This document shows positions 4,637 through 35,025 of a stretch of DNA of 43,347 nt, piece after piece. The position numbers were made by a program, and so were the translations under genes. The DNA lies in contig NZ_JAAKEG010000015.1 in the NCBI RefSeq assembly GCF_011039075.1, forward strand, positions 1 to 43,347. The letters are read 5' to 3'. Numbering within the stretch: position 1 is the stretch's first letter; each line of letters begins with the position of its first letter. The notes under the pieces were generated by a model that worked only from the letters and a program-made list of their open reading frames with translations, had not been told where the DNA came from and ran no database searches. The DNA comes from Adlercreutzia sp. ZJ304 (GTDB lineage: Bacteria; Actinomycetota; Coriobacteriia; Coriobacteriales; Eggerthellaceae).

Positions 4637-7195
4637 ATGGGAAGCACTATTCATACATATATAAATAAGCTGATAGCGTGTCTTTTATCGGCGGCTCTTG
4701 TTGTGGGGTTATCGCCGGGTGCGGCGTTTGCTGCATCTTATGCAGGTTCGGATTCTGCCACGTACGAGGATAAAGACTTCAACAGCGCCAGCGGTCAATT
4801 CCAAAGCGACATTTACTTTATTGGGCAAGAGACGTTTGCTGTAGTTGACCCGACAACTTCTATGTATGAGCGAGAATTTGTAGCGGGAAACGCCATTGAA
4901 ATGTATGTAAAAGGGGCTGCTAATTTTGTGGACAGTCTTACGGCTACGTGGAAAATGGCAGAGGCGGTGTATACGGGAGTTGATACGCCAAACTATGCGG
5001 CGGCGTATGCAGCAGCGCAAGTTGTGGCGGCGCACGAAAACGACAGCATTGCATTAGACAACCAGACTAGAGCAGTTGTCTGCAGGCATTTTCCGCAAAA
5101 CGATGGGCTGGAAGCTAACAAAACTTATTGGTATTGGCTAGAGGTGGAAAATGCGTCGGGTCAGGTGGCGGTGCAAAACACGGATAAGCCTTTTGTAGTT
5201 ATACGCGAAACGGGCTATAGAGTAGGACCCTACTACGATGATTTGGCTGCGGATGGGGCTGCTTATACTTGGATGGTGGCGGGCGGTCCGGTGGCTAATA
5301 TTGATGGAGTTAATGTAAATACCGGTGTTAACGGTGCAATTTATAAGGGGTCTACGCTTTCTAGTGTTGTGTCGCCGTCTGTGTCGTCAGTGTATGAGTT
5401 TTTAGAGCAGGTGGCTGTAGCTGATAGGGATACAAGTGGCAATGCTATGAAGCTTAGTAAGGTGTGGCAGGTTGCTATACGTGGAGTGAACGAGGGTTTC
5501 GAAGCCTACAAGGAAGACATTTTCGTTAAATTGAATACCGATGCTGTAGAGGGTTTTGACACGAACGCTCTTGATGACTACAAGCTGTTTATGCTTGACG
5601 ATAGCGGGCAGACGTGGAGGTCGGTCGACTTGATGGACGCTGCGGCGGCGGCAAGTGTCGGCATTACCGATGTTGCGGTTGAGGCAACGGGCATTACGTT
5701 TAAGCTGACGGGCACAAATACTACAGGCAATATTGGCGTGTTTGGTTTGGCAAAGCGCATGACGCAAGAAGAAACTGACTATTCTTTCCGTGTTACTCCG
5801 CAATTCAGCAGCGGCGGACAGATAAACAATAATGGTGGCGCGTTCGCGTATGGGGCGCACCCAATGTTTGTGTTCGATCCTTATCCGGGATACAAGGTTG
5901 ATAGTGTAGCGCTTTTAGTTGGTGGTGGCAGTTCGCGCAGCGGTCAGGTTCGGTATGAAATTCCGCATGTGTCGCAAGTAGGTGCGCAGGCGCCATATGG
6001 CACATACAGTGGAAACACTTACACTTTTCCCGCCGATTTTAACGACGGCGGCAGTATGTCAGATGTCACTTTCTCTGTGACGTTTACTAAAGCCGATTCT
6101 TATGTGCCGCCGGCGCAGGGTCAAGTTCCTGCCGTGCAGCTGACTGCAGGCAATGCCCCACAGCTTTTGACTGATGTGCCGCATGGCAGTGTGTATTTTG
6201 GCGCCAAGATAAACGAAACGCGCGTGAATGCTGGCGAAACGAAGCGATTTGAAGCGAACAAAACTTACGGGTCATTCACTATGAAGACGAACGATCCTAT
6301 GATGCTTTATTTCGAACCTGTTGATGGGTGTAAGGTTGAGTCGGTAACAATAAATGGTGAAACGCATACTGTATATGGAAGTTCTTACGTTATTCCATCG
6401 TTTAATACCAATATGTCTATAAAGGTCAACTTCGCATTTACTATGATCGAGCCTGTGTTCTACTTTAAGGTGAAAGCCGATTACGATAGCAGTCAGGCGC
6501 GCGTGGGCTTTGGGCAAAGCGGCGTTCAGTGGGTTGATTCTATTAGTGTGGCTCAGGGCGATCATACTACATTTATTGTTGAGCCGCACGCTAATTATGT
6601 GCTTCAAAGTGCTGTTGTGTCTTATGGTGAAGGCACGTCTGAAACTGATGCAACAACTTGGATTTCAGAGCAAGGCATTCTTACTGTCCCAAATATTCAA
6701 CGTGATACTATCGTTAGCTTCGTGTTTAAGAAAACCAACGAGCCGCCTGTACCTGTGCCGGCTGACACGTTTACCGTAACTGCGCGCGCTGTGGGTAAGG
6801 GCGGTTTTATATCTGGTAGTGGTACTGCTGGCACACTTTCTGCGACGGTTCAAGCCGGTGGTAGTTACACAATAAATTATCAGGTGCATTTGGGTTACAG
6901 GGTTGTATCCATTACCGATAACGGCAAAAGCATGAATTTTAGTTTGCACGATAGGTCGTATACGGTATTTAACATTGCCGAAAACCACGACGTTGTTATA
7001 GCGTTTGATACGGTTAGTTCATGTCCACCGGCTGGCGTAATATCGCCCACAAAAAGGATAATTCACCGGTTGCAATCGCTTGCTAAGACGGGCGACTTGA
7101 ATGTGCCAATTGCAATTAGTTTTGCTGCGGTAGCTGTAGTTGCTGGCGGTACTGCTGTATTTCTTTTGCGTCGCCGCAAACGAGCCGCTAGCTAG
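4637..7195 (+). CDS. LAKTG-anchored cell-wall surface protein
   Basis: An 852-residue secreted protein with a signal peptide at about 1-32 (cleavage near AFA-ASY). The large ectodomain includes repeated beta segments of the form VxSVxxNGE / VDSVALLVG that end in predicted beta-sandwich modules. The C-terminal sorting signal is LAKTG at 815-819, followed by a hydrophobic helix and RRRKR. LAKTG is an accepted sortase-substrate variant in Gram-positive bacteria. No sortase gene is in the window. As the only anchored protein of the locus it probably serves as the base or a covalently attached adhesin. Its stop overlaps the convergent mscS stop by 8 bases. Ectodomain ligand unknown. Confidence 0.83.
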   Translation: MGSTIHTYINKLIACLLSAALVVGLSPGAAFAASYAGSDSATYEDKDFNSASGQFQSDIYFIGQETFAVVDPTTSMYEREFVAGNAIEMYVKGAANFVDSLTATWKMAEAVYTGVDTPNYAAAYAAAQVVAAHENDSIALDNQTRAVVCRHFPQNDGLEANKTYWYWLEVENASGQVAVQNTDKPFVVIRETGYRVGPYYDDLAADGAAYTWMVAGGPVANIDGVNVNTGVNGAIYKGSTLSSVVSPSVSSVYEFLEQVAVADRDTSGNAMKLSKVWQVAIRGVNEGFEAYKEDIFVKLNTDAVEGFDTNALDDYKLFMLDDSGQTWRSVDLMDAAAAASVGITDVAVEATGITFKLTGTNTTGNIGVFGLAKRMTQEETDYSFRVTPQFSSGGQINNNGGAFAYGAHPMFVFDPYPGYKVDSVALLVGGGSSRSGQVRYEIPHVSQVGAQAPYGTYSGNTYTFPADFNDGGSMSDVTFSVTFTKADSYVPPAQGQVPAVQLTAGNAPQLLTDVPHGSVYFGAKINETRVNAGETKRFEANKTYGSFTMKTNDPMMLYFEPVDGCKVESVTINGETHTVYGSSYVIPSFNTNMSIKVNFAFTMIEPVFYFKVKADYDSSQARVGFGQSGVQWVDSISVAQGDHTTFIVEPHANYVLQSAVVSYGEGTSETDATTWISEQGILTVPNIQRDTIVSFVFKKTNEPPVPVPADTFTVTARAVGKGGFISGSGTAGTLSATVQAGGSYTINYQVHLGYRVVSITDNGKSMNFSLHDRSYTVFNIAENHDVVIAFDTVSSCPPAGVISPTKRIIHRLQSLAKTGDLNVPIAISFAAVAVVAGGTAVFLLRRRKRAAS

Positions 7196-31356: not shown

Positions 31357-31447
31357 GGAGGAGTGACCGAGAGGCCGAAGGTGCTCGCCTGCTAAGTGAG
31401 TAAGCCCCAAAAGGGCTTCTAGGGTTCGAATCCCTACTCCTCCGCCA
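31357..31447 (+). tRNA. tRNA-Ser(GCU)
   Basis: Class II tRNA with acceptor GGAGGAG/CTCCTCC, anticodon arm CTCGC-CTGCTAA-GTGAG (anticodon GCU), a long variable arm (GCCCCAAAAGGGC), T loop TTCGAAT and encoded CCA. tRNA-Ser genes are frequent integration sites, and the DNA downstream looks mobile. Confidence 0.96.
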
Positions 31448-31806
31448 GCCCTACCTATTTCGCGAACAGCACTATACAGGCGTTTCTTTTATCTCACCCA
31501 ACTCGTATAACTTGAAAAACGCTGATTTTCGTTCGGTTGTTCCCAAAATGCTCCCAAAAACGAAGCAGCCACAAAACCACCAAATTCGTGGTAACACTAT
31601 TGGCAACACAAAAAGCACCGTTTCTCAAAGTTCGCCCAGCTAGAAGCGCATTTTCAAATACTCATTTAGCTGATTCCCCTCATCTGCGCAGCCCTAACCG
31701 TTTTTAGAAAAACGCTAAAAACAGTCAGGGAACCCCTGCGCACAGTCCTTTTCTCCTTCCTTACAGGAAGGGGCGGCTCATTCTAACACGCTGCTCACAA
31801 CGTCAA
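31448..31806. other. gene-free segment downstream of tRNA-Ser, island-like
   Basis: No gene supported in about 360 bases. It contains the direct repeat GTTCCCAAAA / GCTCCCAAAA (around 31538-31560), reminiscent of integrase arm sites seen next to tRNA attachment sites, and several short hairpins (for example CCTTCCTTACAGGAAGG around 31766). A left end of an integrated element is an inference; no second att copy of the tRNA end is in the window. Confidence 0.35.
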
Positions 31807-31861
31807 AGCGCATGAGTTTTATAAAAAATGAAACTCGCATTTTTTATAAAACTCATGCGCT
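31807..31861. repeat. 24-bp perfect inverted repeat
   Basis: Arms 31807-31830 and 31838-31861 are perfect complements (beginning AGCGCATGAGTTTTAT) around a 7-base loop. The stem is AT-rich with inner A6/T6 runs. It is far longer than a usual terminator stem and belongs to no gene nearby. Candidate recombination site, MITE core or strong bidirectional terminator. Confidence 0.85.
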
Positions 31862-31948
31862 ATCGCGTTTCTGCTTCCTCTTTGACATTGTTGCGCCGCG
31901 CGTTCATTTGCCGCCATCTTCCGAAAGGAAGTTCGATGACAGGACCAG

Positions 31949-32218
31949 ATGATGGGAGTCGAAATGAGCAAGTTCCCGGAGCGCGTAACAGAGCAGCGTC
32001 AAGCAGTGGTAGAGAAGATAATCGCGGACATGACCACCAAAGGCTACGAATGGATTGAGCCGTTCGAGTACGGACACGCGCCGCAGAACCCGATTTCAGG
32101 CACGACCTACAAGGGCGGCATCTCCCTTCTAATCCGCTGCCCAGCTGGGCAGCCAGTCCCCGCTCTCTTTTTCGCGTTCCGAGACGTTACAAAGGACCTC
32201 CTCGTACCAAAAGGCTAA
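31949..32218 (+). pseudogene. truncated ArdC-type antirestriction (N-terminal ssDNA-binding) gene
   Basis: About 89 residues resembling the start of ArdC/DUF1738 proteins: the pattern KGYEWIEPF...APQNPISGTTYKGGISLLI corresponds to the conserved W-x-P-W ... NP-x-(S/T)G-x-x-Y-x-G motif. It then runs into unrelated sequence and stops after less than a third of a normal ArdC. GGGAG precedes ATG 31964. ArdC is carried by plasmids and conjugative elements, which supports a mobile origin for this region. Probably non-functional. Confidence 0.6.
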
Positions 32219-32343: not shown

Positions 32344-32550
32344 TTAATCAACAACCTGCTCCTTGGAATTCTTGTCCGAGCGCTCCTTTTCCAATTTTTC
32401 TTCATAATCATGAATAACGTCCCACATGAACGCACGTACAGCTTGAGTCGTATTTTGCCGTGGCTCACCAGCCTGTAAGGCAGCCTTAAAGCGACGATAC
32501 ATATCCGGCTCAACACGAATAATTACTTGCTGCATTTCAACGGATTTCAT
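32344..32550 (-). CDS. ribbon-helix-helix regulator or antitoxin-like protein
   Basis: A 68-residue protein: strand QQVIIRVEPDMYRRFKAALQAGEPRQNTTQAVRAFMWDVI, the ribbon-helix-helix pattern of small plasmid regulators, then a charged tail (EEKLEKERSDKNSKEQ). Start at ATG 32550 with GGGAG upstream. Tandem 18-base repeats lie just upstream and are its likely operator. The small acidic ORF follows. Either a copy-control/transfer regulator or an antitoxin whose toxin is missing. Confidence 0.7.
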   Translation of the reverse strand: MKSVEMQQVIIRVEPDMYRRFKAALQAGEPRQNTTQAVRAFMWDVIHDYEEKLEKERSDKNSKEQVVD

Positions 32551-32570
32551 TAGAATCTCCCTTCTTCGGG

Positions 32571-32613
32571 TAGCTATATGATAGTAAGTAGCTATATGAT
32601 AGTAAGTAGCTAT
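32571..32613. repeat. tandem 18-bp direct repeats upstream of the RHH gene
   Basis: TAGCTATATGATAGTAAG occurs twice back to back (32571-32588, 32589-32606), followed by a third partial copy TAGCTAT. Each copy contains the half-palindrome CTAT...ATAG. Position and spacing suit cooperative binding of the RHH protein. CTATC/GATAG half sites recur in the 32739-32781 promoter region. Confidence 0.75.
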
Positions 32614-32738
32614 CAAATCGTCAACCAAAAAAATGAAAACTCCGAATCGCAAGCTAAACGGATTCGTAACAACCATTCAACAGGCATCCTTAATTATCGG
32701 CCAATAACAAATCGTTTAAGCCAATTCGCAATTTGCTA

Positions 32739-33005: not shown

Positions 33006-33028
33006 TACGTAAAACAAATAGAATCGAA

Positions 33029-33147
33029 GGGGCTGTAACAGAAGTCCCATCAATAAGAAACCTGCTACAATATGTGGTGGGTTTCTTGCATTTCATTTCA
33101 ATATATAGCGGTTCAAGATAACCATTCAAGACTTTTGTTACAGCCCC
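33029..33147. mobile_element. MITE-like element, 119 bp
   Basis: The ends GGGGCTGTAACAGAAGTC (33029-33046) and GACTTTTGTTACAGCCCC (33130-33147) are inverted repeats with one mismatch in 18. Inside is a second imperfect hairpin (AAGAAACC...GGTTTCTT). No transposase and no coding capacity. Ends beginning GGGGCTGT resemble those of insertion sequences, so this is probably a non-autonomous derivative. A target duplication is not evident. Confidence 0.65.
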
Positions 33148-33173
33148 TTTATTGCTCATATCGAGTTATAAAC

Positions 33174-33896
33174 CTACAAATAATCTTCGAGGTCAACAAT
33201 GGAACGATAAAGAACAGTATGGCGGCTGTCTATGTTGCAATCTCTGTGAAAATGACCGCAGAACCAGTGCCTATATTCCAGCTTGTCCTCTACCTCGTCT
33301 AAGAAATCCGTCAACTCGTCATTGACAGCACCAACGCCAATAAAGCCCTTATCGCCTATGGCTTCTGCGAGATAGCGCGTTGCACAGGTGTGCGAGAGGA
33401 CGAAATCGACGCGCCAGCCGTAGCGAGCAAGATTCTTCCTCGCATTAGCGTATTCAGCTTCGTCCGGCATTTCCTCCGGAAACCAAGTTCCCCAACTCTG
33501 CTGTATCGCCTTGTCTATCGACTGCGCACCACCCATGCAGAAGAACGAATAACCGCCTATGTCGTAGACCTCACCGCGCATGAGATGGACAATATTCTCG
33601 TATCTCGGATAACGGTGAACCGCTCCACCATGCCATTTCTCAATTTTTAGATGATTGAGATAGTCGAAGTGCTCATGGTTGCCGTCGATGAAAAGGGCGG
33701 TCCAAGGCTTAGCCGCCAAGGAGCGCAAATCATGGTCGCTATCAAACAAGTCCGAGGGCATCCCGAAGTCACCGAGGACAATCAGATAATCATCCCTCGT
33801 CAACTTCGCGCCCTCGGGGAAGTTCCAGACCTCGAAGCGGTCGAAGTCCTTGCTTCCAACCATGCCGTGGGTATCGCCAGTGAGATAGACAGCCAT
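33174..33896 (-). CDS. calcineurin-like metallophosphoesterase
   Basis: A 240-residue protein with all metal-site motifs: GDTHG at the N-terminus, GDFG, GNHE, SHTC and GHFH. It would hydrolyse a phosphomono- or diester in the cytoplasm with two metal ions. The ATG at 33896 lies 5 bases after the stop of the 79-residue gene, so it is the last gene of a three-gene cassette. Distant relatives occur in phages and mobile islands beside P-loop kinase-like proteins. Substrate unknown. Confidence 0.9.
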   Translation of the reverse strand: MAVYLTGDTHGMVGSKDFDRFEVWNFPEGAKLTRDDYLIVLGDFGMPSDLFDSDHDLRSLAAKPWTALFIDGNHEHFDYLNHLKIEKWHGGAVHRYPRYENIVHLMRGEVYDIGGYSFFCMGGAQSIDKAIQQSWGTWFPEEMPDEAEYANARKNLARYGWRVDFVLSHTCATRYLAEAIGDKGFIGVGAVNDELTDFLDEVEDKLEYRHWFCGHFHRDCNIDSRHTVLYRSIVDLEDYL

Positions 33897-33901
33897 GACG
33901 G

Positions 33902-34141
33902 TCAATCGGAGCAGTCAGGCAAACTCGCCAGATAGTCATCTAACTCCTCAAGCAAATTGGGATATCGACCCTTCCCGGTATCACGGAAGGCTACGGCTTC
34001 TGCAATGAAGTCCTCCAAGCGTTCAACCTCCCGACGATGCATCTCATATGGCAGGTCTTTCATGCTATACACCTTGTCACTCACATCGTCGTGAACAAAA
34101 AGGTTGCCATGCTCGTCCATCGCGATATTGACCTTATTCAT
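33902..34141 (-). CDS. small acidic protein of the kinase/phosphoesterase cassette
   Basis: A 79-residue protein with no known family. It has an N-terminal strand-turn pattern (NIAMDEHGNLFVHDDVSDKVYSM) and a helical C-terminus (RREVERLEDFIAEAVAF...LLEELDDYLASLPD). Its ATG overlaps the stop of the upstream kinase-like gene (ATGA), and its stop is 5 bases before the phosphoesterase start. Such tight packing suggests a partner or inhibitor of one of the two enzymes. Confidence 0.72.
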   Translation of the reverse strand: MNKVNIAMDEHGNLFVHDDVSDKVYSMKDLPYEMHRREVERLEDFIAEAVAFRDTGKGRYPNLLEELDDYLASLPDCSD

Positions 34142-34692
34142 GCTCCCACCAACGACCCTTCTATGTAGTCACTGACATACTGTCCGCTTCCGAGAACGAC
34201 ACGCTTTGTCGGGTTCATAGACTCGTAGTACCTTATGAAATAGGCGAAGTCACCATAAAAAACCTCGATGAAGGACTGCGCATTTCCCCTGTCCTTGTAT
34301 CGCTGCAAATACTCATCGGCCAAATCCGCACGGGGATAGACCAGCGTGTAAGGCTGGTAACCGCCATTGAAGCATTCTGCTTCAAAAGTAACCATCACAG
34401 GAATAATAGGCGGCGCAAGAATGAAGCGGTACTCACCACTTCGCTGAACCTCGGACAAATAGTGATAGTAGTTCATCGACCACTCGTCGCATATGTCGCT
34501 CTCGCAGCAAGGCGAAGCCTTCAACCTCTCCGCTTCAAGCAGGGAATGAGCGCATATAGGCTTCTTGTACTTGAATCGACCAATCCTCGCATCAAGCACG
34601 CCATCAAAACCACCTGCATAGGTCTTGCCCGTACCGGGATAGGCGAAAACCACTTCACATTCACCGGAACGCTTAAATTGAACAGAAGTCAT
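34138..34692 (-). CDS. P-loop nucleotide/polynucleotide-kinase-like protein
   Basis: A 184-residue protein with Walker A AYPGTGKT near the N-terminus, a substrate-strand region, and the C-terminal block LVYPRADLADEYLQRYKDRGNAQSFIEVF. This block is seen in a family of phage and mobile-element P-loop proteins related to dNMP or polynucleotide kinases. Start at ATG 34692 with AAAGGG upstream. First gene of the cassette, overlapping the next by 4 bases. Enzymatic activity is an inference from the motifs. Confidence 0.72.
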   Translation of the reverse strand: MTSVQFKRSGECEVVFAYPGTGKTYAGGFDGVLDARIGRFKYKKPICAHSLLEAERLKASPCCESDICDEWSMNYYHYLSEVQRSGEYRFILAPPIIPVMVTFEAECFNGGYQPYTLVYPRADLADEYLQRYKDRGNAQSFIEVFYGDFAYFIRYYESMNPTKRVVLGSGQYVSDYIEGSLVGA

Positions 34693-34952
34693 AACCAACC
34701 CTTTCAACAAGCATCCTATTGATGGAGTTAAATTCTCGATAGATGCCAAGAACGTTGCCAAAGGATGCACGCTCAACTAAACCACCCAGCATCCTGCAAG
34801 GTGAACGGTGCTTTTCCTTGCAGGACTAGCAGGGAAATCCTTATTCCTCCACCACAATCCCAACAGCGCTCGAAGAAATTGCGGTATTCGCTGATAATGT
34901 AGAACAAAGCCATTTCCTTATCAATCGCCTTGCTGTGCTTTTTTGTAAAAAA
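34693..34952. other. intergenic segment with 10-bp inverted repeat
   Basis: Contains TCCTGCAAGG (34792-34801) and its exact complement (34816-34825) around a 14-base loop, upstream of the cassette. A short open minus-strand stretch (KAIDKEMALFYIISEYRNFFERC) may be a gene remnant but has no start or ribosome binding site. No other feature supported. Confidence 0.35.
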
Positions 34953-34982
34953 TGAAGAGATCGGCTTACGCCGATCTCTTCA
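34953..34982 (-). terminator. intrinsic terminator of the metal-chelate importer operon
   Basis: Thirteen-base perfect arms (TGAAGAGATCGGC / GCCGATCTCTTCA) with a 4-base loop. On the minus strand they are followed by TTTTTTAC. Confidence 0.92.
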
Positions 34983-35025
34983 TGAGAGATGAGAAAACAA
35001 TAGAACTTATTGCGCTTTTGCCACT

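Follow-up and report, generated by a model that had tools for sequence, protein, structure and literature searches.

A kinase-fold gene of phage type, an orphan small gene and a metallophosphoesterase gene side by side in a tRNA-Ser islet of Adlercreutzia: a probable one-genome assembly

Introduction

When a gene for a kinase-like protein (here kin), a gene for a small protein (small) and a gene for a calcineurin-type metallophosphoesterase (MPE) are packed together in a bacterial genome, do they form a functional cassette, or were they brought together locally? The question is raised by a locus of Adlercreutzia sp. ZJ304 (Eggerthellaceae; RefSeq assembly GCF_011039075.1), for which a first-pass annotation, made from the sequence, proposed that the small protein couples the two enzymes, possibly in an RNA end-repair or anti-phage function. 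We analyzed the 43,347 nt of contig NZ_JAAKEG010000015.1 (hereafter the window) together with genomes of the same genus, family and class, and with phage and viral sequences.

Results

Gene layout and transcription

The three genes are real ORFs in an operon-like arrangement, all on the minus strand (Table 1). Codon statistics, trained on 19 other genes of the window, scored the own frame best for each of them, and the score of small (0.106 bits/codon) was above the 99% shuffle level of 0.068, in agreement with the small acidic protein previously placed between the two enzymes. The earlier description of three overlapping genes holds for kin and small, which share 4 nt (ATGA), but small and MPE overlap solely if MPE begins at its TTG codon. 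The ATG is the likely start and is preferred over the TTG, and it lies 5 nt beyond the stop codon of small. Upstream of kin, a hairpin ends an ABC-transporter operon (domains PF01497, PF00005 and PF01032), so that kin-small-MPE is probably a separate transcription unit in which kin has its own promoter; the promoter candidates found did not rise above chance level. Within this unit, the three genes are probably co-transcribed.

Table 1. Coordinates of the three genes and of surrounding features in the window.
Feature	Position (nt)	Strand	Description
tRNA-Ser(GCT)	31357-31447	plus	3' end (31431-31447) is one islet boundary
Truncated ArdC N-terminal domain ORF	31949-32218	plus	PF08401, E 1e-4, just over cut-off; mobile-element remnant
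Small ORF	32344-32676	minus	Weak phrog_28287 match, E 7.6e-4; ribbon-helix-helix-like by eye only
MPE	33174-33905	minus	243 aa from TTG (33905) or 240 aa from ATG (33896)
small	33902-34141	minus	79 aa, acidic by residue count
kin	34138-34692	minus	184 aa from ATG; AAAGGG 5' of start
att-like copy of tRNA-Ser 3' end	34838-34854	plus	TCCTTATTCCTCCACCA; decayed, 3 transitions; other proposed boundary
Terminator-like hairpin	34952-34983	minus	14-bp; end of upstream ABC-transporter operon, separates it from kin

The tRNA-Ser islet

The three genes sit between tRNA-Ser(GCT) and the ABC-transporter operon, in what had been taken for a mobile island. This assignment stands, in the form of an islet bounded by the tRNA: a search of the window with the tRNA 3' end returned two matches (0.05 expected by chance over the whole window), and an att-like copy of the tRNA's final 17 nt, on the same strand as the tRNA, was found just upstream of kin. 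The truncated ArdC ORF fits a mobile origin of the islet. Third-position GC content (GC3) was higher in kin, small and MPE (0.56-0.62) than in most flanking core genes (0.39-0.47); because GC3 was also raised in the ABC-transporter genes (0.55-0.61), this contrast is not specific to the islet and is a weak indication of such an origin. We identified no integrase within the islet, and the four Phage_integrase matches in the genome are all on other contigs. Long, near-perfect inverted repeats are also present inside the islet (31799-31869, with 32-nt arms, and 33027-33149, with 20-nt arms), and are possible remnants of mobile elements or terminators.

The matching locus was found in another genome of the genus (G010, contig 16), where the flanking genes follow the order of the window: ispE, a deaminase-like gene, MPE, tRNA-Ser(GCT), DUF2207, EamA, a shikimate-kinase-like gene and others. 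The G010 MPE is 66% identical to that of the window, and upstream of it the 17 nt of the tRNA end recur without a mismatch (G010 7078-7094; 0.04 matches expected by chance), whereas kin, small and an intact ABC transporter are absent from this locus. The shared flanks and the tRNA-end copies in both genomes indicate that an MPE-containing tRNA-Ser islet is present in each, although the G010 MPE could also represent an independent insertion into a tRNA hotspot. In our sample of the genus (three genomes), kin is absent from both other genomes, and no MPE was detected in G011 (86% genome completeness).

Conservation of the three genes

A functional coupling of kinase and phosphoesterase, as first suggested, would be expected to recur; a search for the triplet in other genomes gave the opposite result. 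MPE was found in 40 of 138 family genomes, as a solitary gene with varying neighbors, while kin was found in three (and in 7 of 396 class genomes), elsewhere with no MPE adjoining. The two occur together in this genome only among the 138, and the small protein is likewise confined to it (1/138). The family genome search gave no MPE match in the kin-bearing genomes G062 and G019, and no MPE of the PHROG_1649 type was present near kin in G062, G019, G765 or G537 (the latter on a 3-kb contig). Similarly, none of 80 viral MPE loci, read for about 3 kb on each side, contained a relative of kin or small. Hence, kin-small-MPE is not a conserved cassette within the collections searched, and the pairing of the two enzymes was seen in no other genome. 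The ATGA overlap and the 5-nt spacing could nonetheless reflect a real coupling that is too young or too rare to appear elsewhere. As judged by sequence comparison, the small protein is an orphan with no detectable relative in the collections searched (none in phages or viral contigs, and no significant plasmid match).

The viral loci revealed no recurring partner of MPE either. The commonest neighbor, a second and shorter gene that resembles a metallophosphoesterase by its motifs, was near MPE in only 8 of the 80 loci (L103, L134, L139, L163, L165 and others), and in one bacterial locus (L043:6500-7090). In four viral loci (L122, L129, L133 and L170), a gene with the OB-fold domain PHA02142 (PF21189; one member scanned) lies within 1.5 kb of MPE; this domain is known from RNA-ligase-like proteins. 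A tRNA gene was located within about 7 kb of MPE in 3 of 16 further family loci, so MPE is not generally found beside tRNA genes in the family. The genome under study also carries a broken second MPE copy (L002:1501-1680, corresponding to G000:C25:69164-69343; 53% identity over 59 residues, with an internal TAA), which stands upstream of an ORF that appears AbiEi-like by eye.

A phage-type kinase fold

The kin protein was matched to phrog_4182 (E 3.8e-20, residues 38-206 of the 212-aa ORF) and had no match in Pfam, NCBIfam or PADLOC. Most members of phrog_4182 come from T5-like, T4-like and jumbo phages, with sporadic annotations such as nucleotide kinase, AAA ATPase or polynucleotide kinase. 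The motifs of kin comprise a Walker A sequence (AYPGTGKT), D34 and a LID-type RYKDRG (R131, R135), and the residues that it has in common with its phrog_4182 relatives include the P-loop Lys23, D34, N74, Y75, P120, R131, R135 and G136. Compared with members from the T5-like phage SB10, Bacillus phage AR9 and Acinetobacter phages, kin is about 30% identical and retains the P-loop, D34, YP and R..RG, but it lacks the DSDSS and SSH motifs (phage LDSDSS reads LDARIG, and SSH reads APP) and has an insertion in the 38-64 region. These motif changes are partly common to other relatives from the same class. Because kin has replaced both SSH and the second Asp of the phage DSD motif, its specificity is possibly altered.

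An AlphaFold model of kin (pLDDT 79) has a P-loop kinase fold. Its best Z scores (8-9.6) were tied between adenylate, gluconate, CINAP-type and other kinases, which ruled out the choice of a single kinase family from the fold search, and its best viral fold matches were to phrog_4182 itself. When PDB sequences were searched with the kin sequence or with a kin profile, no match was better than chance, and single-protein scans (kin and the G062 kin against viral contigs, kin against genome contigs) recovered no relatives. Going by the model, kin is most likely a relative of nucleotide or small-molecule kinases with a generic fold. Pnkp and T4 Pnk-type 5'-kinases carry a DxxR motif after the P-loop. 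At this position kin reads D34-A35-R36-I37 and the family consensus is DSDSS; the motif is thus absent, and an assignment of kin to the Pnkp type is not supported. The kinase domain of Clostridium thermocellum Pnkp does share the P-loop kinase fold (4jt2, Z 8.3; 4gp7 by Foldseek), but kin has neither DxxR nor a fused phosphatase or ligase, and the match is tied with those to many unrelated P-loop kinases. The phosphoesterase encoded next to kin is a separate protein and represents a different MPE branch from that of Pnkp. Of the original description as a polynucleotide- or nucleotide-kinase-like P-loop protein, the kinase-like P-loop character is retained, and the Pnkp type is not.

In G062, kin lies about 0.5 kb from a gene for a 753-aa AAA_13 protein (L053:6024-8285), which matches PDC-S06 (E 6e-242) and PrrC (E 7e-18) in PADLOC.

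A metallophosphoesterase close to Dbr1

The recognition of MPE as a calcineurin-type phosphoesterase was confirmed by a PF00149 match (E 2.1e-8, above the cut-off), by the motifs GDTH, GDFG, GNHE, SHT and GHFH, and by metal ligands (D8, H10, D43, N73, H74, H169, H215 and H217) that are invariant in both alignments. The protein also matches the metallo-phosphoesterase family PHROG 1649 over its whole length (E 3e-30), with the same metal-binding motifs. Members of that family are encoded by stand-alone genes in phages and bacteria, whereas the window copy is part of a three-gene operon, and no known substrate was found for any PHROG 1649 member.

A profile of 11 MPE family members identified one solved family clearly, the RNA lariat debranching enzyme Dbr1 from Entamoeba (E 5e-7, profile residues 2-218). 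Dbr1 was also matched (E 3e-5) by a second profile, built from the window MPE and 33 viral relatives. The structural model of MPE (pLDDT 90) had its top Z score with Dbr1 (15.0 over 208 residues), nearly tied with aq_1956 (14.8) and purple acid phosphatase (14.5). Its best Foldseek match was chain L1 of the human intron lariat spliceosome (8ro2), which we take to be the Dbr1 paralogue CWF19L1.

Dbr1 is nonetheless distinguished from other enzymes of this fold by Cys14, which replaces the first metal-site Asp, by a lariat recognition loop (residues 130-158) and by a C-terminal domain (PMC4176325). The profile matches to Dbr1 (4peh, 4pef, 5k71), the only clear ones to a solved family, extend over the whole MPE domain; in place of Cys14, however, the window MPE and all its relatives have Asp8, and MPE ends 23 residues after GHFH, with no C-terminal domain. 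An identification of MPE as Dbr1 itself was rejected on these two grounds. In a sequence alignment, the lariat recognition loop corresponds to MPE residues 122-149, which are of near-equal length with single-residue gaps and include the family-invariant D128, E142 and P144, while the invariant R158 of Dbr1 is not matched. MPE may thus belong to a prokaryotic branch close to Dbr1; no bacterial Dbr1-like MPE was found described in the literature. It is most likely a two-metal phosphomonoesterase or phosphodiesterase that belongs to this Dbr1-like branch and has nucleotides or RNA as substrates. No reverse transcriptase (RVT_1) was detected in this genome at the threshold used, which leaves no obvious native source of retron or group II intron lariats as a substrate.

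Discussion

Taken together, the locus is probably a local assembly of accessory genes in the tRNA-Ser(GCT) islet, confined to one genome. MPE, which is a solitary gene elsewhere and is present at the same locus in G010, would be the older resident; a phage-type gene with a P-loop kinase fold and an orphan small ORF would have been added upstream of it, and the three would now probably be read as one transcript. The putative roles of kin and MPE are those suggested by family membership and predicted fold, and an obligatory two-enzyme pathway is not indicated.

Kin and small might instead be decaying, phage-derived passengers that abut MPE by chance and no longer have a function. The loss of the family motifs from kin (DSDSS to DARIG, SSH to APP) and its absence from the other two genomes of the genus are consistent with such passengers, yet all three ORFs are intact and carry an in-frame codon signal, and kin keeps its P-loop, D34 and the LID arginines. 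Moreover, part of the motif changes recurs in other relatives from this class, as would be expected of a form specific to the clade rather than of a gene in decay, and we consider functionless passengers unlikely. RNA end repair, as proposed in the first-pass annotation, would have kin phosphorylate 5'-OH ends and MPE remove 3' or cyclic phosphates, in the manner of a Pnkp that lacks its ligase. A kinase and a calcineurin phosphoesterase do share one operon here, the nearest solved relative of MPE is an RNA enzyme, a gene for an RNA-ligase-like OB domain is close to MPE in 4 of the 80 viral loci, and Pnkp kinase domains from Clostridium are among the fold matches of kin, tied with many other kinases. 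Some phage RNA-repair neighborhoods also hold calcineurin-like phosphoesterases and nucleotide kinases (PMC7824862, PMC9503650). Nonetheless, such repair appears distinctly improbable, given that kin lacks DxxR, that no ligase was identified in the neighboring genes scanned, and that the pair of enzymes is not conserved.

An anti-phage or toxin-antitoxin operon, with one of the enzymes under the control of the small protein, could be expected in a tRNA-bounded islet with mobile-element remnants, and the short acidic ORF between two enzymes and the PDC-S06/PrrC-like gene near kin in G062 would be in keeping with it. That neighbor is, however, a single and anecdotal case among the kin loci; the small protein is an orphan that is coupled to neither enzyme elsewhere; many phages themselves have members of the kin and MPE families; and PADLOC gave no match at E ≤ 1 for the three proteins and three nearby ORFs of the window. 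The anti-phage role raised at the outset is hence not borne out, and we regard an operon of this type as highly unlikely.

If the locus is a local assembly, as we favor, the kin-small-MPE arrangement matters little in itself, because it was seen once. Of wider interest is the MPE family, which is widespread in phages and bacteria and is nearest to Dbr1 by both profile and fold. It is a long shot that MPEs of the PHROG 1649 type are a prokaryotic sister group to Dbr1 and cut 2',5' bonds or another unusual type of phosphodiester linkage, with a member here joined to a phage kinase; possible targets would include the RNA of retrons or group II introns and 2'-linked signal nucleotides. Should the family act on 2',5' linkages, this would be relevant to the handling of retrons, group II introns or 2'-linked signaling nucleotides by prokaryotes and phages.

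A further lead is the phage P-loop kinase family phrog_4182, whose bacterial members show altered motifs. The kin domain is N-terminal in a protein of about 760-810 aa in Pseudomonas phage OBP and in a related viral contig (L058:2492-4924 and L089:2992-5268), and among 14 control genomes, one phrog_4182 match was found, in Methanocaldococcus jannaschii.
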